This document shows, one piece after another, positions 2,970-20,445 of a DNA stretch of 37,954 bases. The stretch lies in contig QYZZ01000006.1 of the NCBI GenBank assembly GCA_003838145.1, positions 1 to 37,954 on the forward strand, given 5' to 3'. The DNA is from Tindallia sp. MSAO_Bac2 (lineage in GTDB: Bacteria; Bacillota; Clostridia; Peptostreptococcales; Tindalliaceae). Under the pieces are notes generated by a model, which worked only from the letters and a program-made list of their open reading frames with translations, was not told the DNA's origin and made no database searches. Numbering within the stretch: position 1 is the first letter of the stretch; each line of letters starts with the position of its first letter. Both the position numbers and the translations under genes were made by a program.

Positions 2970-3317
2970 TCAAAGCTGCTGGTTTTCCATTGGCTTCCCT
3001 TCCATAAAGGCTTTAATATTTCTGTAAGCAAGTTCAAAAGCCCTGTCCGGCACACTGGTGGATAAAAATGAAGCATGAGGCGTTGCTATTATTTTGGGAT
3101 GATCCCAGAGGGGACTTTTCTCCGGCAGTGGTTCTTCATGAAAAACATCCAGGGCTGCTGCTCTTAAGCCATTTTGGTTTAAATGATCCAGCAGCGCTTC
3201 TTCTTCGGATACCGGTTCCTTTTCATCCGACCATACCACTGGATTACAACCCAGTTCTCTGAACCGGTCAAGTTTGGCTTCCGTCATTTGATAACCGGCT
3301 GTTATCAGTATCTTCAT
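2970..3317 (-). pseudogene. D-2-hydroxyacid dehydrogenase remnant with internal in-frame deletion
   Basis: 115 aa where the family has about 310. Residues 1-38 (MKILITAGYQMTEAKLDRF... to EKEPVSEE) resemble the extreme N-terminus of NAD-dependent D-isomer 2-hydroxyacid dehydrogenases. From residue 39 the sequence continues directly with the family C-terminus: ALLDHLNQNGLRAAALDVFHEEPLP, then WDHPKIIATPHASF with the catalytic His. The whole NAD-binding Rossmann core (GxGxxG, catalytic Arg and Glu) is missing, about 200 residues. The junction falls in a GAAGAAG-rich stretch that both ends could share (VSEE and the usual VDEEAL), which fits a recombinational deletion. A strong ribosome site (AGGAGG) remains, so a stub could still be made. 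It lies downstream of the lysA-MFS pair on the same strand. Confidence 0.8.
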
Positions 3318-8019: not shown

Positions 8020-9297
8020 CTACTTTTCAATTTTCTCCATTCCGCCCATATAGGCACGAAGTGCTTCAGGGATAAGAACCGAGCCATCTGCCTGCTGACA
8101 GTTTTCCAGAATTGCTGCCAGGGTTCTTCCCACTGCCAAACCGGAACCATTTAAGGTATGAACAAAGGTAACTTTTCCTCCATCTTTAGGACGGTATCGA
8201 ATGTTGGCACGTCTTGCCTGAAAATCTTCAAAGTTACTGCAGGAAGAAATTTCCACATAACGTCCATAGCTGGGCATCCATACTTCCAGGTCATATTTAA
8301 AGGCTGCCGTAAAACCCAGATCTCCTGTGGCTATTTTGACAATCCGATAAGGAATATTCAGCTTTTGCAGCACTTTTTCCGCGTTTTCCACTAAGGTTTC
8401 CAGCTCAGCGTAAGAAGATTCCGGGGTGGTAAATTTTACCATTTCCACTTTATTAAACTGATGCTGTCGGATCAGTCCTCTGGTATCCCGCCCGGCAGAT
8501 CCGGCTTCGGAGCGGAAACAGGGAGTATAAGCGGCATAGTAAAGCGGCATGTCCTCTTCGTTTAATATTTCATCCCGATAAATATTGGTTACCGGTACTT
8601 CCGCTGTCGGTACCAGGAAAAAGTCTTTTTGTGGAATCCTAAAGGTATCCTCCTCAAATTTTGGCAGCTGGCCGGTGCCGGTCATACTCTGCCGGTTCAC
8701 CATAAAGGGTGGCATCAGTTCCTCATAGCCATGCTCGTTAATATGCAGGTCCAGCATGAAGTTAATAAGAGCCCGCTCCAGCCTGGCACCGGCTTTTTTA
8801 TAAAGCACGAATCGGGAGCCGGTAACTTTGGCGGCTCTTTCAAAGTCCAGGATATCCAGATCTCCTCCAACGTCCCAGTGTGCTTTAAAGTCAAAGTCAA
8901 ATTGAGGCTGATCGCCCCAGCGTTTAACTTCCACATTATCTTCGTCCGTATCTCCCTGAGGAACATCCGGATGGGGAATATTGGGGATTCGGAGCATTTT
9001 CTCCTGCAATGTATCTTCCACCAGTGCAACTTTTGCATCCAGATCCTTTATGTTAGCCGAAAGTTCCTTCATCTGCTGCATTACTTCCGTTGTATCTTCA
9101 CCGGCTTTTTTCAGCTTTGGTATTTCTTTTGATACCCGGTTTTGCTCACTTTTCATTTGTTCTACTTCCTGAAGCAGTTTTCTGCGTTCTTCGTCCAATG
9201 CCACCACTTCATCCAGGTCGATATCAGCTTCGCCCCGGCGATTCATGGCAGCTTTAATGCTATCCAACTCTGTTCGTAATCGTTTCATATCCAGCAT
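8020..9297 (-). CDS. serS: seryl-tRNA synthetase
   Basis: 425 aa, full length. It charges tRNA-Ser (and tRNA-Sec) with serine in the cytoplasm. Residues 1-110 form the long antiparallel coiled-coil arm that grips the variable arm of tRNA-Ser. The class II core follows: [18 protein letters not shown]; motif 2 [21 protein letters not shown]; and motif 3 with [18 protein letters not shown] near the C-terminus. AGGAGG lies 5-6 nt before ATG 9297. The gene is governed by a serine T-box leader with its own promoter and ends in a strong hairpin, so it is a one-gene transcription unit. Confidence 0.97.
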
Positions 9298-9351: not shown

Positions 9352-9597
9352 AAAAAAGCCTCCATCCCAATGAAGGGACGAAGGCTTAAGCTCCGCGTTG
9401 CCACCCTGATTGACTTTACCTTTTGGTAAAATCCTCTTCAAAACCTTTTAACGGGGGTTGGCCGGCTTTTATCATAAGCGGTTCCAGGCTGGATTCAATT
9501 CATTTCTTTATCGGCTTTCACCTGCCGCCGACTCTCTGAAAAAGAAAAAGAATTTACTGGGCCCTTCTTCACCTGTCCATAAGGAATGGATACAGTT
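9352..9597 (-). promoter_or_regulatory. T-box riboswitch (serine) controlling serS
   Basis: The minus-strand leader has the full T-box order. Stem I carries AGAGAG after its 5' strand. The specifier loop has AGTA on the 5' side and GAA-TCC-A on the 3' side, so the specifier codon at 9493-9491 is UCC (Ser). The T-box core AGGGTGGCAACGCGG lies at 9407-9393. Its UGGC would pair with the GCCA 3' end of uncharged tRNA-Ser. The terminator follows: AAGCCTTCGTCCC / GGGATGGAGGCTT plus a T run at 9387-9352. Uncharged tRNA-Ser should favour the antiterminator and read-through into serS. Confidence 0.95.
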
Positions 9598-9668: not shown

Positions 9669-11522
9669 TTAAAGATATTTTTTTATTTTCCTGTAAGCTG
9701 TTGCTTGACTAATCCCCAAGGCTTCTGCCACTTTATAGCTATTACCATACTCCTGGTAAGCCCTTTCTATTAGTTTTTTTTCTAGTTGATTTACTGCATC
9801 CTCCAAATTTATGTGTTTTTGGGGTTCATTATTAGCATGACTAAATTTATTTGGTGTTAAATTATTAACAAAAAAGTACTGCTCATCACTTTCCTCAATT
9901 AGCTTTGACGGACTTGTTACAACGAGTCGCTCCATTGAATTCTCTAATTCTCTAACATTTCCTGGCCATTCATAATAGATCATGCTCTGTTTGAATCCGT
10001 CACTAACGGCTACATTCTTATTATATTTATTGTTATATTTTTCAAGAAAAAAATCAATTAAATAGTTAATGTCTTCTTGTCTTTCTCTTAGTGGGGGGAT
10101 GTATACAGGTATTACATTGAGCCGATAATATAAATCCAGTCTAAAAGTTCCTTTTTGAACCATTTTATACAAATCTTTATTTGTTGCTGCAATAATTCTT
10201 ACATCTACTTCTATTGGCTGGTTTCCACCTACTCTCATAATTTTTTTATCTTGTATCACTTGCAAAAGTTTGACTTGCAAATGTAATGGCATTTCGCCAA
10301 TTTCGTCAAGAAGCAGCGTTCCTTTATCCGCCATTTCAATTAAACCTGGTTTTCCACCTTTTTTTGCACCTGAAAAAGCTCCTGATTCATATCCAAGCAA
10401 CTCTGACTCTAATAGTGATTCTGGCAGCGCTCCACAATTAACTTCGATCATCCTTTGTCTTTTTCTTTGTCCAGTATCATGAATGTATCTTGCTACCATT
10501 CCTTTACCAACTCCCGATTCTCCAGAAATCAGAATTGTTGAATCTACATTTTTTATGTCATTAGATAATTGCAAAATACTGTTCATGCTCTCGCTCTTGC
10601 TTATAAAGGATTCTTTCTTTGTAGGTTTGTTTGATTTTACTGATTCGTTTTGTTGATTAAAGTATTTATTTATTATATTCAGTTCTTCAATATTGATAGC
10701 GTTTATTATTATTCTAAAAACATTTTTATTCTCATCAAAAACTGGTACCGCTGTTACTAGAGCTTCTTTGTTTGTTTCAAACTTTTGAATGATTGAGAGC
10801 TTCCTTTTTTCTTTTAAAATTAGTAATCCTATTGAAGGATTGTAGTATCCTTTTTCTTCCATTGTACGAACGTTCACACCAGTAACTTTTTCTCTGCTAA
10901 TCCCTGTTATATTTTCAAATTCTTTATTAACTCTAACAGTTATTCCTTCGCCATTCAAAATCACGAAAGAGTTCGGTGCATTTTCAAAAGCCTGATCAAG
11001 TTCTTGATACCATATTTTTATATCATGTAAATTTTGAATGACATTTTTTAACTGATTTTTTCCATCAAAAGGTCTCTTATCATTAATATATCTTCTCCCA
11101 GTGGTTGGCTCTCGTTGAAATGCCATTGTAAATCTAATAGTCTCTTTTAATATATACTCACTTAAATTATTTAATGATAAAACACCTTCAATTTTTTCCT
11201 TTTCATCTATAATAAGTATATGTTCACAGTTATAACTTAGCTCATAAAACAATTGATCTGTAACTAACGGTCTACACATTATTTTAATTTTTTTTGAAAT
11301 TAAATTGCTTACACCTTTTTCCATACCTTTACTATAGTAATAGGCTTCTAATAAATTCTGTTTTGTTAAAATACCAATGATTTTATTGTCCTTTAATACT
11401 GCTCCAGTATCAACATTGTTTTTATCAAAAGCACCAATTGTCTCTTCAAGACTACTGTTTTCAGCAATTATTATACAAGGAGTCAATGCAATATTGATAT
11501 CTCTTTTCTCGGATTTTTCCAC
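9669..11522 (-). CDS. sigma-54-dependent transcriptional activator (CBS-CBS-PAS-AAA+-HTH)
   Basis: 617 aa. Residues about 12-130 form a tandem CBS pair, a module that often binds adenine nucleotides. A PAS domain follows at about 172-285. The sigma-54 AAA+ domain (about 305-540) has Walker A GESGVGKG (334-341), the sigma-54 contact loop GAFSGA (381-386, a Ser variant of GAFTGA), Walker B GTLLLDEIGE (401-410) and the sensor region LYYRLNVIPVYIPPLRER. A Fis-type helix-turn-helix ends the protein (YKVAEALGISQATAYRKIKKYL). The start is GTG 11522, 9 nt after AAAGGA; the nearby ATG is out of frame. It is divergent from the M20/TRAP operon, which has a sigma-54 promoter, so that operon is the likely target. 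The signal is unknown. Confidence 0.92.
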   Translation of the reverse strand: MEKSEKRDINIALTPCIIIAENSSLEETIGAFDKNNVDTGAVLKDNKIIGILTKQNLLEAYYYSKGMEKGVSNLISKKIKIMCRPLVTDQLFYELSYNCEHILIIDEKEKIEGVLSLNNLSEYILKETIRFTMAFQREPTTGRRYINDKRPFDGKNQLKNVIQNLHDIKIWYQELDQAFENAPNSFVILNGEGITVRVNKEFENITGISREKVTGVNVRTMEEKGYYNPSIGLLILKEKRKLSIIQKFETNKEALVTAVPVFDENKNVFRIIINAINIEELNIINKYFNQQNESVKSNKPTKKESFISKSESMNSILQLSNDIKNVDSTILISGESGVGKGMVARYIHDTGQRKRQRMIEVNCGALPESLLESELLGYESGAFSGAKKGGKPGLIEMADKGTLLLDEIGEMPLHLQVKLLQVIQDKKIMRVGGNQPIEVDVRIIAATNKDLYKMVQKGTFRLDLYYRLNVIPVYIPPLRERQEDINYLIDFFLEKYNNKYNKNVAVSDGFKQSMIYYEWPGNVRELENSMERLVVTSPSKLIEESDEQYFFVNNLTPNKFSHANNEPQKHINLEDAVNQLEKKLIERAYQEYGNSYKVAEALGISQATAYRKIKKYL

Positions 11523-11548
11523 TAATATTCATCCTTTTCTATATATTT

Positions 11549-11652
11549 AATTCATATTTGAATTGTTAATTCATTTGTGAATTTTATCTTTTTAACGCAC
11601 CTATGTCAACATGTTTTATAAATTCATAATGCAATTAATTCATAAATGAATT
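11549..11652. promoter_or_regulatory. four palindromic activator sites (AATTCA-N4-TGAATT)
   Basis: Four 16-bp sites lie in the divergent gap: 11549-11564, 11568-11583, 11621-11636 (right half degenerate, GCAATT) and 11637-11652. Three are perfect AATTCA-N4-TGAATT palindromes. They form two pairs, the first with starts 19 bp apart and the second adjacent. The nearest lies about 100 bp upstream of the sigma-54 promoter, the normal distance for enhancer sites. Sites 1-2 cover the regulator's own -10 and start region. Inferred to bind the Fis-type HTH of the adjacent activator. Confidence 0.8.
11581..11609 (-). promoter_or_regulatory. sigma-A promoter of the sigma-54 activator gene
   Basis: Consensus TTGACA (11609-11604) and TAAAAT (11586-11581) with a 17-bp spacer on the minus strand, about 60 nt before the GTG start. 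The -10 and the expected start point overlap palindromic sites 1-2, so the activator probably represses or tunes its own synthesis. Confidence 0.8.
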
Positions 11653-11751
11653 ACGAATATTTATTGAAGTTTCTTCAACTATTTATAATTTGTATCTATA
11701 CAATTAAGCAATATTCTCATTTTTCTTAAATATTATTATAATTAAATAATT

Positions 11752-11767
11752 TGGCATGCTAATTGCA
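11752..11767 (+). promoter_or_regulatory. sigma-54 (-24/-12) promoter of the M20-TRAP operon
   Basis: TGGCAT-GCTAA-TTGCA matches the consensus TGGCAC-N5-TTGCA. The -24 GG is at 11753-11754 and the -12 GC at 11765-11766, with the required spacing. The expected start is near 11778, about 45 nt before the peptidase ATG. The divergent gene encodes the matching activator. Confidence 0.9.
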
Positions 11768-11822
11768 ATAATGTGTATTATGCCTACAGTAAATCAACAA
11801 TTAAAATTGAAAGGAGTCAATT

Positions 11823-13091
11823 ATGAACGAAACCAAAAAAAAAGTATCAATTTTGTTAGATAAAAAAATTAACGAAACAGTACGTATTTTAGCAGATTTT
11901 GTTCAATACCCAAGTCTTGCAGGGTATGAAAAAGAAGCTCAGGAATTTATAGCAAAAGAAATGAAGTTAGCATCTCTGGATGTTGATCTATGGGAACCAA
12001 CAATCGAAGACACTTATATTAACCCTACTTTCCTTACGACTGTAGATATCTTTAGTGGAAGTCCTAATGTAGTTGGAACTTTTAAAGGAACTGGTGGAGG
12101 AAAGTCTATGATTCTAAATGGACATGTTGACGTTGTTCCTGTGAATGATTCTGACTGGGATAAAAGCCCATGGAGCGGAGCTTATGAAGATGGACGGATT
12201 TATGGTCGCGGTGCCTCAGACATGAAGGGAGGTTTAGTTTCTCACTTAATGGCAATTAAAGCAATCGCTGAATCTGGAATTAAGCTAAAAGGTGATGTGT
12301 ATCTCCAGAGCGTTATTGGAGAAGAGACAGGAGGGATTGGAACTTTATCTGCCATTTCAAGAGGCTATTGCGCTGATGGGGCTATTATTTCTGAGCCAAC
12401 AGATCTTGTCATTTGTCCAGTATCTATGGGGGCTATGTGGTTCCGGATTTTCGTCAAGGGTAGAGCGGCACATGCTGGAACTTCCGAGTTTGGAGTGAAT
12501 GCAATTAGTAAAATGTGTCTTGTCATAGGTGCTTTAAATGAATTTAATGACTTTAGGAGTAAAAATACACGTCATCCGCTTTATAAAAACATATTAAATC
12601 CATTTAATATTAATGTTGGAGCTGTTCGTGGAGGCTCTTTTCCAACCAGCGTGCCAGATGAAATTTATATTGAAGGTAGAATGGCAATCTCGCCGGATGA
12701 GGAGGTGGAAGAGGCAAGGACGGCATTAGAAAACGCTGTTATGGAAGCAGCTACTAACGATGAATGGTTAGTAACTATGCCACCGCAGGTAGAATGGTAT
12801 GGGTTTTGTCTAAGTCCGGGTGGAATTTCACTAGAACATCCCTTAGTTAACACAGTAAAAAGTAATTGCCTTTCCCTTGGTCTATCAGAAACTGTTATTT
12901 CTGGAACACCTTGGGGCACTGATGCTGGTGCTTTAATTAAATATGCTAACACTCCAACAATTGTATTTGGACCTGGGCCTGGCTCAACTGCTCATCAAGC
13001 TAATGAATATATTGATGTTCAAAAAGTTATAGAAGCATCAAAAGTTATTGCTTGTACATTATTGGACTGGTGCGATTATGAAAAACTGTAA
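11823..13091 (+). CDS. M20 family metallopeptidase/deacylase (ArgE/DapE-like)
   Basis: 422 aa, a co-catalytic zinc hydrolase of the acetylornithine deacetylase / succinyl-diaminopimelate desuccinylase group. Metal and catalytic residues are visible: NGHVDVVP (His101, Asp103), GASDMKGG (bridging Asp133), GEETGG (catalytic Glu167 and metal Glu168), SEPTD (Glu191) and a late His in GSTAHQANEYI. The dimerisation lid carries GRAAHAGTSEFG. No signal peptide, so cytoplasmic. AAAGGAG precedes the ATG. It is first in a sigma-54-controlled operon with a TRAP transporter, so it probably hydrolyses the imported compound, likely an N-acyl amino acid or dipeptide-like acid. The exact substrate cannot be read from sequence, and an anabolic ArgE/DapE role is less likely here. 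Confidence 0.9.
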   Translation: MNETKKKVSILLDKKINETVRILADFVQYPSLAGYEKEAQEFIAKEMKLASLDVDLWEPTIEDTYINPTFLTTVDIFSGSPNVVGTFKGTGGGKSMILNGHVDVVPVNDSDWDKSPWSGAYEDGRIYGRGASDMKGGLVSHLMAIKAIAESGIKLKGDVYLQSVIGEETGGIGTLSAISRGYCADGAIISEPTDLVICPVSMGAMWFRIFVKGRAAHAGTSEFGVNAISKMCLVIGALNEFNDFRSKNTRHPLYKNILNPFNINVGAVRGGSFPTSVPDEIYIEGRMAISPDEEVEEARTALENAVMEAATNDEWLVTMPPQVEWYGFCLSPGGISLEHPLVNTVKSNCLSLGLSETVISGTPWGTDAGALIKYANTPTIVFGPGPGSTAHQANEYIDVQKVIEASKVIACTLLDWCDYEKL

Positions 13092-13116: not shown

Positions 13117-14145
13117 ATGAAAAAATTTATGTCAATGATCATTGTGTTATCGTTATTACTTATTTTACCTGGATGTAGTGGTTCAAATGGTTCTGATAAT
13201 AGCGCCGCAAATAGAGGACAAGAAGAATTCGAACTCGGTATCACCTATGTCGTTGCAGAAACTCAATCCACTCACCTTGCAGCAGAAGTTTTTAAAGAAA
13301 AAGTTGAAGAAAGAACTGATGGTAGAGTTTCAATTGAGCTTTATCCAGCAGGATCACTATATGCTTCCGAGTTTGATGCATCTGAAGCTGTTCAGCTTGG
13401 TAACATTGAAATGACAATAACTGCAACTTCACCTTTAGCCGGTTTTATTGACGAATTTATGGTTATTGACCTTCCTTATCTATTTTCTGATGCTGAGTCA
13501 GCCTATGAAGCTTTAGATGGTGATTTAGGCGATCAATTGCTAGGGCTTTTGCCTCCACTTGGTTTGAAAGGTTTATCTTTCGGTGAAACAGGGTTTAGGC
13601 AAATTACAAATAATAGAGGCCCTATTGAATCACCTGATGATTTAAGTGGTTTAAGAATTCGAACCATGGAAACGCCAGCACATATACGGCCTTTCCAAGA
13701 GTGGGGCGCAAATCCTTCACCGCTTGCTTTCGGGGAGCTATATACAGCATTGCAGCAAGGAACTTATGATGCCATGGAAGCTCCAGTATCATTAATATAT
13801 TCTTCAAGATTACATGAGGTTCAAGATTATCTGACTGTTAGTAATCACTTTTATACCGCAACAATTATGCTTATAAATGATGACTTATTTAATGAAATGC
13901 CTGCAGACATTCAGGAAATTATTCAGGAAGAAGCTCTTGCCTTTAAGGATTTACAGAGAGAACTTGCCTCTGAACAAGAAGCGGAATGGTTTGAAGCAAT
14001 TCAAGAAGATGGAATTCAAGTGAATGAACTGTCTGATGATCAAAGAAATGTGTTCCAAGAAATAGGATTAACACTTTATGATGAGTTTGAAGATGAGATA
14101 GGTCGTGATCTTATTGATTTAGCAATAGAAATAAGTGAAAACTAG
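13117..14145 (+). CDS. dctP: TRAP transporter solute-binding lipoprotein (DctP type)
   Basis: 342 aa. Residues 1-20 are a lipoprotein signal with lipobox LPGC, so the mature protein is anchored outside the membrane through Cys20. The body has the DctP pattern: early GITYVVAETQSTHLAAEVFKE, then LSGLRIRTMETPAH with the arginine that usually clamps the ligand carboxylate, WGANPSPLAFGELYTALQQGTYDAMEAP, and the C-terminal helical stretch. The ligand is therefore probably a carboxylic acid. AAGGAGGAATTAAT precedes the ATG, 25 nt after the peptidase stop. It is followed by a stable hairpin and then dctQ-dctM. Confidence 0.92.
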   Translation: MKKFMSMIIVLSLLLILPGCSGSNGSDNSAANRGQEEFELGITYVVAETQSTHLAAEVFKEKVEERTDGRVSIELYPAGSLYASEFDASEAVQLGNIEMTITATSPLAGFIDEFMVIDLPYLFSDAESAYEALDGDLGDQLLGLLPPLGLKGLSFGETGFRQITNNRGPIESPDDLSGLRIRTMETPAHIRPFQEWGANPSPLAFGELYTALQQGTYDAMEAPVSLIYSSRLHEVQDYLTVSNHFYTATIMLINDDLFNEMPADIQEIIQEEALAFKDLQRELASEQEAEWFEAIQEDGIQVNELSDDQRNVFQEIGLTLYDEFEDEIGRDLIDLAIEISEN

Positions 14146-14206: not shown

Positions 14207-14248
14207 ATATATTGACACGCTACAACCTTTAGGATGAGAGGTGAAAAA

Positions 14249-14746
14249 GTGAATTTACTAAAGCTTCTTGATGAAAGAGCTGAGCAAGTACTGGCAGTAT
14301 TTGCTATGATTGTTATGGTTATCCTGGTATTTATACAGGTCATTTTTCGCTACGTTATCAACGCATCTTTAAGCTGGTCTGAGGAACTGGCAAGATACGC
14401 ACACATTTGGATGGTTTGGCTATCAGCTAGTTATGCTGTTCGAAAAAGTGCTCACATAAAAGTTGAAATGGTTAAAAATATATTCAATATGAAAACACAG
14501 AAGGTAATTAATGTTATTGCCTTACTGCTTTGGTTTGCTTTTGCATTATTTTTTGCTTGGCAGGGTCTCTCTATGGTTCTTTCCGTTATGGAGCGTGGTC
14601 AACGAGCCGCAGCGACTAGAATACCAATGTGGATTGTGTATATAGCTCTTCCCTTAGGTGGGTTTCTTATGTCTTTCAGGCTAGTACAACGTTTATATTT
14701 TTTATTTAACTCCGCAAAAGCAGCAGAGGAGGTTGAGACAAAATGA
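14249..14746 (+). CDS. dctQ: TRAP transporter small permease subunit (DctQ type)
   Basis: 165 aa with four hydrophobic helices. The start is placed at GTG 14249, 5 nt after GAGAGGTG; the upstream ATG 14234 has no spaced ribosome site. The family signature follows the first helix: QVIFRYVINASLSWSEELARYAHIWMVWLSASYAVRKSAHIKVE. The two later helices end in a short charged tail. It partners DctM in the membrane for ion-coupled uptake of the ligand delivered by DctP. The stop overlaps the dctM start by 4 nt (ATGA). Confidence 0.92.
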   Translation: MNLLKLLDERAEQVLAVFAMIVMVILVFIQVIFRYVINASLSWSEELARYAHIWMVWLSASYAVRKSAHIKVEMVKNIFNMKTQKVINVIALLLWFAFALFFAWQGLSMVLSVMERGQRAAATRIPMWIVYIALPLGGFLMSFRLVQRLYFLFNSAKAAEEVETK

Positions 14747-16023
14747 CAATTGCCTTTCTTTTTGGATCACTCATACTTTATATTGCTTTAAATATTCCTA
14801 TTGCTATATCTCTTGGATTATCTGCATTAACTACATTAATATTTGCCAGTAATGTATCCTATGGAATGATCGTTCAGCAAGCTGCTACATCTCTTAATTC
14901 ATTTCCTATCATGGCAATCCCTTTTTTCATGCTTGCCGGCATTTTAATGTCAAAAGCAGGTATTTCCAAGAGATTACTTAATTTAGCAAACGCACTAGTT
15001 GGATCTTTCACTGGGGGTCTTGCTCAAGCAACTATACTGGCTTCAATGTTTTTCTCAGCTATTTCTGGTTCTGGTCCAGCAACTGTTGCTGCAATTGGTT
15101 CTTTTATGATCCCAACAATGAAAGATAATAATTATGATAAAGGATTTGCGGCATCAATAACAGCTACTGCTGGTTCAATTGGTGTAATTATACCTCCGAG
15201 CATCCCTTTTGTTGTTTATGGCATTACGGGCGAAGTATCCATCGGCGCAATGTTTCTTGCTGGCATTATACCCGGCATAATAATTGGTTTGATGCTGATG
15301 ATATTTTCATACATTATCTCAAAAAAAAATAATTATTCAGCTGTTTACAAACGTGTTGGAATTAAGGGTTTAATCAAAGCTATAAATGATGCTAAATGGG
15401 CTTTAATGATACCTATTGTTGTTTTAGGGGGAATCTATGGAGGTATTTTTACTCCCACCGAAGCTGCTGTTATTGCAGTTGTATATGCAATTTTTGTTGG
15501 CCTTTTTGTTTATAGAGAAATGAGTTTAAAAGACCTTTATGATGGATTTGCTGAATCATGCTTGGTCGCTGGTACAACGATGGTTATTATTGCTCTAGCC
15601 ATTTCGTTTTCATATCTTATGACTGTTGAGCAAGTTCCAAGGACTATAGCCAATTTTATAACAAATTTTTCAGAAAATAAACTTGTTATTCTTTTGTTGA
15701 TAAATGTCTTTTTGATATTTGTCGGCGCCTTTATCGACACTATATCAGCTATTATTGTTTTAACACCAATGTTGTTACCTGTAGTGACTCAAGTTGGAGT
15801 TGATCCTGTTCATTTTGGCGTAATTCTGGTAGCCAATCTTGCGATCGGGTTCGTCACTCCTCCTGTTGGGGTAAACCTCTTTGTTGCTTCAAATATTGGT
15901 CTTGTAAGTATAGAGAGAATAGTAAGATCAATTATTCCTCTTTTTATAGCTCTTATTATTAGTCTGATCCTTATAACCTATATACCTTTTTTATCAACAT
16001 TTTTGCCTGAATTTTTTCTATAA
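14743..16023 (+). CDS. dctM: TRAP transporter large permease subunit (DctM type)
   Basis: 426 aa, about 12 membrane segments, full length for DctM. Family marks include NSFPIMAIPFFMLAGILMSKAG, SAISGSGPATVAAIGSFMIPTM, GSIGVIIPPSIPFVVYG, GIFTPTEAAVIAVVYA and GFVTPPVGVNLFVAS. This subunit forms the sodium-coupled translocation path. It is translationally coupled to dctQ and is the last gene of the sigma-54 operon, with a terminator about 35 nt later. Codons are AT-rich like the rest of the cassette and unlike the gene that follows. Confidence 0.95.
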   Translation: MTIAFLFGSLILYIALNIPIAISLGLSALTTLIFASNVSYGMIVQQAATSLNSFPIMAIPFFMLAGILMSKAGISKRLLNLANALVGSFTGGLAQATILASMFFSAISGSGPATVAAIGSFMIPTMKDNNYDKGFAASITATAGSIGVIIPPSIPFVVYGITGEVSIGAMFLAGIIPGIIIGLMLMIFSYIISKKNNYSAVYKRVGIKGLIKAINDAKWALMIPIVVLGGIYGGIFTPTEAAVIAVVYAIFVGLFVYREMSLKDLYDGFAESCLVAGTTMVIIALAISFSYLMTVEQVPRTIANFITNFSENKLVILLLINVFLIFVGAFIDTISAIIVLTPMLLPVVTQVGVDPVHFGVILVANLAIGFVTPPVGVNLFVASNIGLVSIERIVRSIIPLFIALIISLILITYIPFLSTFLPEFFL

Positions 16024-19148: not shown

Positions 19149-19949
19149 TTACTGCATTGTTTTCTTCAGTTCCTTTTTAAACTTCTCGATAATCTTTTTT
19201 TCCATTCGGGAAACTGTCATCTGAGAAACCTGCAATGCATTGGCAACCTGCATCTGGGTTTTATTTTCGAAGAAGCGATCCTGCAATACTTTTCGTTCCA
19301 CTTCGTTCAATTTTTCCATGGCCTGATAAATAAAGTCCCGGTTTTCAATGAAGTCAAACATTTTATCCGGTTCACCAATCAAATCCATGAACTGTATATC
19401 TTTGTCCTCACCTTCATTATCATAGGTAAGATCCAAGGATTTTGGAGTATATACCTGATTTGCCTCCATGGCTTCGATGACTTCTTCTTCGGTGCATTTC
19501 AGGTACTCGGCTATATCTTTTATCTTTGGCGTTCGCTGCAGTTCCTGTTGTAATGTGGATTTAGTGGTGTTGATTTTCTTTGACAGCTCCTGGATTCTTC
19601 GCGGCACACGAATTGACCACCCTTTATCCCGGAAGTATTTCTTAATCTCTCCGATGATGGTTGGCGTGGCAAAGCTGGAAAACTCATATCCTCTGTCTGT
19701 ATCAAATCGTTCTATTGCATAAATCAGACCAAGTGATGCCACCTGATAAATATCTTCGTAATCGATCCCTTTATTTATATATTTTCTGGACAAAATTTCA
19801 GCAATGAACAGGTGCCTTCTTACCAGCTCATTTCGAATTTTAACGTCCCTATTTTTCCTGTAAAGTAAAAAAAGCTCTTTTTCACTGAGGGAGTCAAGTG
19901 GCGGTGCTTCTCGTTGTTCTGATGTATTTTTTGAAGAAGACGGTTTCAT
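19149..19949 (-). CDS. sigB: SigB/SigF-type RNA polymerase sigma factor
   Basis: 266 aa, a group 3 sigma factor. Region 2 has NELVRRHLFIAEILSRKYINKGIDYEDIYQVASLGLIYAIERFD and YEFSSFATPTIIGEIKKYFRDKGWSIRVPRR. Region 3 follows (TPKIKDIAEYLKCTEEEV). Region 4 carries the HTH KTQMQVANALQVSQMTVSRMEKKI. The start overlaps the rsbW stop by one base (TGATG), so the two are coupled. The gene order gyrA-rsbV-rsbW-sigma is the one I recall for C. difficile sigB, so general-stress SigB is preferred over sporulation SigF, which shares the fold and partners. Confidence 0.88.
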   Translation of the reverse strand: MKPSSSKNTSEQREAPPLDSLSEKELFLLYRKNRDVKIRNELVRRHLFIAEILSRKYINKGIDYEDIYQVASLGLIYAIERFDTDRGYEFSSFATPTIIGEIKKYFRDKGWSIRVPRRIQELSKKINTTKSTLQQELQRTPKIKDIAEYLKCTEEEVIEAMEANQVYTPKSLDLTYDNEGEDKDIQFMDLIGEPDKMFDFIENRDFIYQAMEKLNEVERKVLQDRFFENKTQMQVANALQVSQMTVSRMEKKIIEKFKKELKKTMQ

Positions 19950-20377
19950 CAGGACTCCTCCCTTAGGTTTTTTATCATTCTGATAGATGTGCCCTGGTTA
20001 CTTCCAGTATCGATATGCACGTCGTCCATCAATGATTTAATGATAAAAATTCCCAGTCCTCCTTCATTTAATTCATCAATTTTTGGCTCTTTAATCGCTG
20101 TTTCATCATATCCTTTTCCAAAATCTGAAACAGAAATAGTTAACTTGGCTTTTTCCAATAAAAACTGCACAAGAAAATTATCATTAACGTTACATCCTCC
20201 GTGCATTATTGCATTGGAACATGCTTCCGACAAAGCCACTTTTATATCTTCTATGTCCTCAATATCAAAGCCCATGCGATTAGCAATGGACGCAACTGTA
20301 AGGCGGATCAGACTCACGTATTCCGCTCGATGAGGGATAGAAACTTCTATCATCTCTTGATTGATCTCCTTATTCAT
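19949..20377 (-). CDS. rsbW: anti-sigma factor, serine kinase (RsbW/SpoIIAB type)
   Basis: 142 aa from ATG 20377, which has AAAGGAG 9 nt upstream; a longer GTG frame lacks a ribosome site. It is a small GHKL ATPase: N box SEACSNAIMHG (Asn55), G1 box VSDFGKGYD, G2 box NEGGLGIFIIKSLMDDV and a final GTSIRM. Proteins of this type hold their sigma factor inactive and phosphorylate the matching STAS antagonist on serine. The antagonist gene lies just upstream and the sigma gene overlaps its end, which completes a partner-switching module. Confidence 0.92.
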   Translation of the reverse strand: MNKEINQEMIEVSIPHRAEYVSLIRLTVASIANRMGFDIEDIEDIKVALSEACSNAIMHGGCNVNDNFLVQFLLEKAKLTISVSDFGKGYDETAIKEPKIDELNEGGLGIFIIKSLMDDVHIDTGSNQGTSIRMIKNLREES

Positions 20378-20445
20378 TTGGCTTAACTCCTTTATTTTCG
20401 GATTCACAGCTGGCTATACACCTTTCTCGCATTCTTATTAAATAA

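Follow-up and report, generated by a model that had tools for sequence, protein, structure and literature searches.

A putative sigma-54 switch with tandem AATTCA-N4-TGAATT palindromes between a CBS-PAS activator gene and an M20/TRAP operon of Tindallia sp. MSAO_Bac2

The 300-bp, AT-rich gap (11523-11822) between a sigma-54 activator gene and a divergent operon for an M20-type enzyme and a TRAP transporter contains three perfect copies and one imperfect copy of the palindrome AATTCA-N4-TGAATT together with a sigma-54 promoter box, and it is very probable that this region constitutes a one-operon sigma-54 switch driven by the activator bound at the palindromes. The window, that is, the whole stretch of 37,954 nucleotides that was analysed, belongs to a draft genome (2,484,674 bases in 129 contigs, 97.47% complete) which also encodes sigma-54 (PF04552, E 7.5e-67). 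The switch supplies a defined candidate operator for an activator with CBS and PAS domains and ties it to the M20 family NF005373. Moreover its operator format, with half-sites linked to the recognition helix, is a pattern whose presence can be tested in the DNA around many activators of anaerobic metabolism.

Table 1. Features of the putative switch and of its flanking genes (positions in the window)
Feature	Position	Strand	Basis and remarks
Sigma-54 activator gene	9669..11522	-	617 aa, GTG start; Pfam
HTH coding region	9675..9815	-	Pfam; recognition helix read as starting SQAT
CBS pair coding region (sensor part 1)	11112..11489	-	two CBS stretches, predicted model, Foldseek
Palindrome 1	11549-11564	.	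AATTCA-N4-TGAATT, 12/12; motif scan
Palindrome 2	11568-11583	.	AATTCA-N4-TGAATT, 12/12; 19 bp from palindrome 1; shares 3 bases with the activator's -10
Likely sigma-70 promoter of activator	11581..11609	-	TTGACA-17-TAAAAT (11/12); promoter match
Palindrome 3	11621-11636	.	10/12 (2 mismatches); 53 bp from palindrome 2
Palindrome 4	11637-11652	.	AATTCA-N4-TGAATT, 12/12; 16 bp from palindrome 3
Sigma-54 promoter box TGGCATGCTAATTGC	11752-11766	+	pattern scan, shuffles; aligns with the boxes of two orthologous gaps
Target gene 1, M20 ArgE/DapE-type deacylase/peptidase	11823..13091	+	NF005373
Target gene 2, TRAP solute-binding protein DctP	13117..14145	+	domain searches
Target gene 3, TRAP small permease DctQ	14234..14746	+	Pfam
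Target gene 4, TRAP large permease DctM	14743..16023	+	domain searches

Palindromes, promoter box and target operon

A preliminary description of this DNA had listed three perfect palindromes and one imperfect, in two pairs, about 100-200 bp upstream of a TGGCAT-N5-TTGCA box. A scan of the gap confirmed the sites and their placement, with 197, 178, 125 and 109 bp between the palindrome centres and the -24 GG downstream of them; counted from the putative M20 transcription start, this would put pair 1 near -221/-202 and the other two palindromes near -149/-133. The two-pair layout was found for palindromes 1 and 2, whose centres are 19 bp apart, but the second pair is closer, at 16 bp, below the 18-21 bp range of the activator class considered further on.

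Not one of 1,000 dinucleotide shuffles of the gap contained a perfect palindrome, and in the rest of the genome no further perfect copy was found, the reversed control pattern also giving none. With up to three mismatches there was no enrichment in the whole window (50 found, 53.9 expected), so that the palindrome signal rests on the exact copies. The 14-bp core ATTCA-N4-TGAAT occurs at six sites in the genome, three of them in this gap (reversed control: one), and one of the three extra sites faces a sigma-54 box near another activator. As a means of finding the regulon, which had been proposed for it, the operator thus gave a divided result: the perfect 16-bp sites mark one operon, but three further core sites exist. 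The box TGGCATGCTAATTGC is the sole exact match to TGGCA-N6-TTGC within the window, and a box of this pattern arose on that strand in one of 1,000 gap shuffles.

The M20 enzyme passes the cut-off of NF005373 (500.7 against 428 bits). To judge from domains and gene content, the operon probably imports and hydrolyses an anionic amino-acid derivative or peptide. Among solved structures there are many relatives of DctP and few for the M20 enzyme, those only distantly named, and in the literature no paper was found on this M20/TRAP operon and no substrate for NF005373.

The activator and its orthologs

The divergent gene had been read as a sigma-54 activator with a CBS pair, in which Pfam, the two CBS stretches, the structure model and Foldseek agree. 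The protein is composed of the CBS pair (about residues 12-137), a PAS domain (183-279), the AAA+ domain (307-473; Sigma54_activat, PF00158, E 7.8e-66), the lid (479-546) and a C-terminal Fis-type HTH (570-616; HTH_50 E 4.8e-12, HTH_8 E 2.1e-5); the PAS domain, which follows the CBS pair and precedes AAA+, extends the earlier account, which named the CBS pair only. The GAFTGA-type loop is GAFSGA here and GAFTGA in the other five proteins of the alignment. The structure model of residues 1-290, built from two sequences, has a mean pLDDT of 60.5 and is poor in the PAS part; ten-residue blocks of residues 11-120 have values of 77-92, except 61-70 (65), followed by 61 for 121-130 and 49 for 131-140. 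It shows two beta-alpha-beta-beta-alpha units and falls on CBS pairs in Foldseek, where the best match is a CBS protein (E 9.6e-9). The sequence GILTKQN of the first CBS resembles what we take to be an adenosine-type ligand signature.

The best NCBIfam score, over residues 169-616 (PAS-AAA-HTH), was that of PrdR (NF041552). Identity with PrdR was rejected: the score is 391.7 bits against a cut-off of 795, and the alignment starts only at residue 169 and leaves the N-terminus unaligned. The PrdR motif is given as of the TGT...ACA type (PMC6615313). The sensor combination had also been presented as one not recognised as characterised. It is indeed uncommon, and no study was found in the literature on a CBS-PAS sigma-54 activator of this kind, but CBS is among the sensor domains listed for Clostridiales activators by Nie et al. 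in 2019 (PMC6615313) and other CBS-PAS activators occur at loci L205 and L161. The one at L205 (2724-6625) is a 705-aa protein with a strong CBS pair and a PAS domain, a second PAS being suggested; with TTGCA-type palindromes nearby and an HpaB-family neighbour gene, it represents another type of CBS-PAS sigma-54 activator.

When 247 genomes of the order were searched (a sample of a larger group, scoring no more than five candidates in each), five activators from four other genomes aligned from residues 19-45 on, the CBS part included, at 42-52% identity. A CBS-PAS profile run over 393 genomes of the order recovered the same five and our own (E < 1e-110) plus two much weaker matches, so that in this sample the system is of rare and patchy occurrence. 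Of six other genomes of the family none matches over the whole CBS-PAS part, the CBS part alone matched only our own genome in a class-wide search of 391 genomes, and a protein-pattern scan of the genome contigs found no relative.

An M20-type gene is present near all five orthologs, but it differs in type or position. In G397, taken to be Geosporobacter ferrireducens, whose activator shares 52% identity over residues 21-617 (51% in the alignment), the divergent first gene encodes an M20 enzyme of NF005373 that is 60% identical to the one of the window, and the far side of the activator carries DctP, DctM and another M20 gene. In G308 and G300-C68 an NF005373 enzyme (48% and 50% identical, respectively) is encoded about 4 kb downstream, beyond a transporter gene, CoA-transferase-like genes and one thiolase-like gene (the CoA-transferase and thiolase likenesses were read by eye from translations). 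The M20 gene near the activator of G362 belongs to another subfamily, and in G300-C62 the neighbouring gene encodes 491 aa, of which nothing but an M20 dimerisation domain was matched (E 4.7e-7); this protein shares 53% identity with one beside the G687 activator that is itself a weak M20 match. The nearest transporters are BCCT in G397, a Na/Ala symporter in G362, a short-chain fatty acid transporter in G308 and G300-C68, and SSF in G300-C62.

Sites matching at least 10 of 12 positions number four in the window, three in G397 (12, 11, 12), two in G300-C62 (11, 11), two in G362 (10, 10), one in G308 (10) and none in G300-C68, and the observed count was matched by 0, 1, 1, 7 and 33 of 500 shuffles for the first five of these gaps. 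Gaps on the opposite side of ortholog genes (n=4) had 0, 0, 0 and 1 sites, the single one being reached in 54 of 500 shuffles. The pair spacing is 19 bp in G397, as in the window, and 20 bp in G300-C62. A third site stands 55 bp from the pair in G397 and the imperfect palindrome 53 bp from it in the window, a likeness which makes palindrome 3 a plausible real site. When the gaps of the window, G397 and G300-C62 are aligned, conservation is, by eye, clearest at the palindrome pair and at the sigma-54 box.

The conservation in orthologous gaps on which the preliminary description had let its operator depend was therefore found in part: clear pairs (11-12 of 12) exist in two of the five, G397 and G300-C62, but the sites are weak or altered in G362, G308 and G300-C68. 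The last two have one good half per palindrome and a 20-bp spacing, at a score of 15/20 that unrelated loci also reach, and their recognition helices read SQSSAHRK or SQSTAHRK against SQATAYRK in the window protein; a drift of specificity is possible there. A further CBS-PAS activator, 37% identical over residues 22-617, came to light by the DNA motif alone in a Thermosediminibacterales metagenome-assembled genome (L161), with a 19-bp pair at the 3' end of the activator gene. As had been suggested, the operator can thus find relatives, but it is common to a broad activator class and not to these relatives alone.

Operator format in a wider class of activators

By its distribution in the genomes, a half-site-N4-half-site unit repeated every 18-21 bp is the format of a broad activator class. 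A blind scan for two ATTCA-N4-TGAAT 14-26 bp apart, made in one genome per species and ignoring activators, gave at least 119 stretches, activators being called within 2.5 kb from tblastn hits to the window protein (E 1e-30; loci of up to 8 kb, some of them cut). Among the matches listed, 31 of the 76 pairs at 18-21 bp had an activator within 2.5 kb against 0 of the 43 at other spacings (L080, with a spacing of 25, has one at 2.6 kb, just outside the limit), and for 45 of the 76 no activator was found within that distance. Likewise, among these matches, a box pointing away within 300 bp accompanied 30/76 well-spaced pairs and 3/43 others, and a box pointing toward the pair, taken as control, 3/76 and 0/43. 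The activator-bearing loci include Bacilli, Clostridia and Halomonas. In 26 of the 31 the tblastn alignment begins at residue 142 or later, past the CBS pair, the exceptions being L109, L138, L153, L161 and L176; CBS was tested in L138, which shares the motif sequence of G397 and is taken as the same locus, and in L161, and both were positive. Tandem-array-like runs of ATTCA-N4-TGAAT were also observed at L093, L098, L106, L123 and L130, where no activator was found in the locus.

A motif-free look at activator flanks brought up other half-sites in the same N4 unit with the same 18-21 bp repeat. When the expectation was taken from activators of other helix classes, spacer 4 was in excess for ATTCA in the class whose recognition helix begins with SQ (61 observed, 10 expected), for ATGCA in the [ND]Q class (28 and 5.2) and for TTGCA in the D[AP] class (27 and 2.6); smaller excesses were seen elsewhere, among them at spacer 8 in the SQ class (27 against 8) and at spacer 2 of the inner orientation in the D[AP] class (18 against 4.8). 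Among 110 activators, ATTCA pairs scoring at least 17/20 accompany 22/55 of the SQ class and 0/55 of the others; ATGCA pairs 10/22 [ND]Q, 0/55 SQ, 3/16 D[AP] and 2/17 other; and TTGCA pairs 8/16 D[AP], 0/55 SQ, 0/22 [ND]Q and 2/17 other. As a control, spacings of 11-14 and 26-29 bp were counted over all 110 together and yielded 6 and 0 pairs for ATTCA, 1 and 1 for ATGCA, and 1 and 2 for TTGCA.

The code was guessed from loci that are part of this set; the fair test is given by the regions fetched later, which share their order with many of those loci. There, 17 of 20 classed motif-bearing activators fit the code and 0 of 20,000 label shuffles do as well, the exceptions being L216 (a tie), L244 and L268. 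The earlier activator filter gave 12/15, equalled by 3 of 20,000 shuffles, and a threshold of 18/20 gave 7/7, a weak test, for 599 of 20,000 shuffles equal it; neither threshold (17 or 18 of 20) was set in advance. Activators were recovered in 51 of the 80 later-fetched regions by the earlier filter (29 without) and in 63 by the looser one, which also loses some, the D[AP] class dropping from 25 to 16. Relatives are not independent, the 22 motif-bearing activators forming 8 groups, and the blind-scan and helix-code sets share at least two loci (L138/L043 and L111/L053).

Where activator-gathered loci carry a class-matched pair, a box points away within 300 bp in 33/40 and toward the pair in 1/40, no recognisable box pointing away being found for the other seven; where the pair scores lower the figures are 22/53 and 2/53. 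The window locus has the features of the class in its 19-bp pair 1, its SQAT helix and its box pointing away. We propose that a large class of PAS-containing sigma-54 activators may share the N4 dyad and that the first two helix residues may set the half-site (SQ for ATTCA, NQ/DQ for ATGCA, DA/DP for TTGCA), a proposal that in our judgement could equally well hold or fail. The rule is incomplete, since 33 of the 55 SQ activators, including all seven SQSK ones, have no pair of at least 17/20; moreover each helix class probably corresponds to a clade, of which the residues may be no more than a marker. If true, the code would make it possible to predict, from a few residues, which operator and which regulon an uncharacterised activator has.

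Some variation of the SQ half-site was observed as well, toward ATACA in the flanks of L211, L228, L231, L262 and L273 (SQPT/SQPS-[IV]VRK helices) and toward AGTCA in those of L217 and L222 (SQST-VVRKLRKYGC helices). On contig C74 of our own genome (L202, 6758-6984) one ATTCA-N4-TGAAT lies about 200 bp upstream of a TGGCACGAATATTGC box that faces a gene of the Na+/H+ antiporter family; another SQ-type activator gene is some 2 kb away. L202 is a candidate for a second operon of this operator class in the genome.

Mode of action, known systems and other readings

In the switch that we propose, activator dimers would bind the AATTCA-N4-TGAATT palindromes through the SQAT-type recognition helix, and the tandem dimers, 100-200 bp upstream, would build up an AAA+ hexamer. 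Through looping, the hexamer would contact sigma-54 RNA polymerase at 11752-11766 and switch on the M20-peptidase/TRAP operon. Activation would be gated by the CBS pair, which probably senses an adenine nucleotide, and by the PAS domain, probably responding to the substrate or a metabolic cue. In a less sure step, activator on pair 1 would probably lower its own synthesis by covering the -10/+1 of its likely sigma-70 promoter. This explanation is favoured by the exact sites, confined within the genome to this gap, by the sigma-54 gene, by the pairs of G397 and G300-C62, by the blind-scan association and by the box orientation; it is weakened by the three of five orthologs with weak or no sites, by the 16 bp of pair 2 and by the differing target operons.

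We take argE, ygeY and pepT to be M20-type genes. In the 2019 survey of Clostridiales activators the first two are targets of DioR and the third of XcyR; the activators described there are mostly one-component, are encoded next to the operon they control and frequently have multiple upstream sites, in most cases 100-250 bp from the box (PMC6615313). The main text of that survey does not use the word TRAP and its target table holds no pairing of an M20-named gene with TRAP, but the activator of the window or its motif may already be among the published logos, G. ferrireducens being one of the species covered (PMC6615313). A literature search for the literal motif found no paper; a motif printed as a logo would escape it.

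Tandem palindromes with an N4 spacer as sites of a sigma-54 activator, like CBS-bearing clostridial activators, are already known (PMC4894688, PMC6615313). For the TyrR-like GcsR of Pseudomonas aeruginosa the binding sites are three 18-bp palindromes in tandem, TGTAACG-N4-CGTTCCG, placed upstream of an RpoN box; its target operon adjoins the gcsR gene, and the authors of that study reason that the hexamer is fed by three dimers (PMC4894688). The window switch is similar in its tandem N4-spaced palindromes, sigma-54 box and neighbouring target operon, whereas GcsR has other half-sites and responds to glycine, and the available text of its paper mentions no CBS pair. In Clostridium difficile, expression of cdsB needs cdsR and a region (153-223) that includes, at -179 to -211, a pair of 12-bp inverted repeats with a spacing of 21 bp (PMC5767170). 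Paired repeats 21 bp apart resemble the window layout, and TTCA-N4-TGAA is also 12 bp long, a likeness of length and layout; the target, a cysteine desulfidase, is different. As to the helix, motif similarity is reported to follow HTH similarity in Clostridiales (PMC6615313), but a Desulfovibrio study notes that the two are not always in step (PMC4641369).

The part played by pair 1 is less certain than the activation itself. Pair 1 may also serve autorepression, as it overlaps an 11/12 sigma-70 promoter aimed at the activator gene, and there is a precedent in SoxR of Bacillus thuringiensis, which through one site activates sigma-54 promoters and represses its own gene, with a binding sequence and target unrelated to those of the window (PMC4941409). 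All four palindromes could instead be enhancers of the M20/TRAP promoter only, a reading that we consider possible but somewhat doubtful. The 109-197 bp that separate them from the -24 fall within the 100-250 bp of most clostridial sites (PMC6615313), so that distance alone would explain pair 1. In addition, the gap of G397 has no convincing promoter beneath its pair, the sigma-70 promoter sought there being rejected as no better than chance (one found, 1.3 expected). In the window, 50 of 1,000 gap shuffles contain a match of at least 11/12 on the strand of the activator gene, and autorepression, though likely, is therefore not secure.

It is very improbable that the palindromes belong to another regulator, such as an ArgR-type repressor, with the sigma-54 activator binding elsewhere. 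The inner reading of pair 1, TGAAT-N5-ATTCA, resembles the ArgR box, which we take to be TGAAT-N4-ATTCA, the target enzyme is ArgE-like, and the inner orientation is mildly over-represented near SQ-class activators at several spacers. Near these activators, however, the sharp excess occurs at ATTCA-N4-TGAAT; the inner orientation reaches at most 21 at any spacer, and an ArgR-type operator was rejected on this lack of a comparable peak. Moreover the half-site letters track the recognition helix of the activator, which is not expected of a third-party regulator. That the palindromes are chance or cruciform-like features can practically be discarded: this reading could draw on the AT-richness of the gap and on the lack of any excess of relaxed matches across the window, but the shuffles, the conservation in G397 and G300-C62 and the activator association of the blind scan all speak against it.

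Other features were observed in the window outside the switch. A T-box leader (RF00230, 120 bits) is present at 9371-9578 on the minus strand, before serS (8020-9297). On the same strand, a 115-aa ORF (2970-3317) matches the 178-position profile of 2-hydroxyacid dehydrogenase only over positions 131-177 and is remnant-like. Just downstream of gyrA, near the dnaA region, a sigma-70-type sigma factor gene and a histidine-kinase-like ATPase gene are encoded on the minus strand (19149-20407), and they resemble what we take to be sporulation sigma/anti-sigma pairs.
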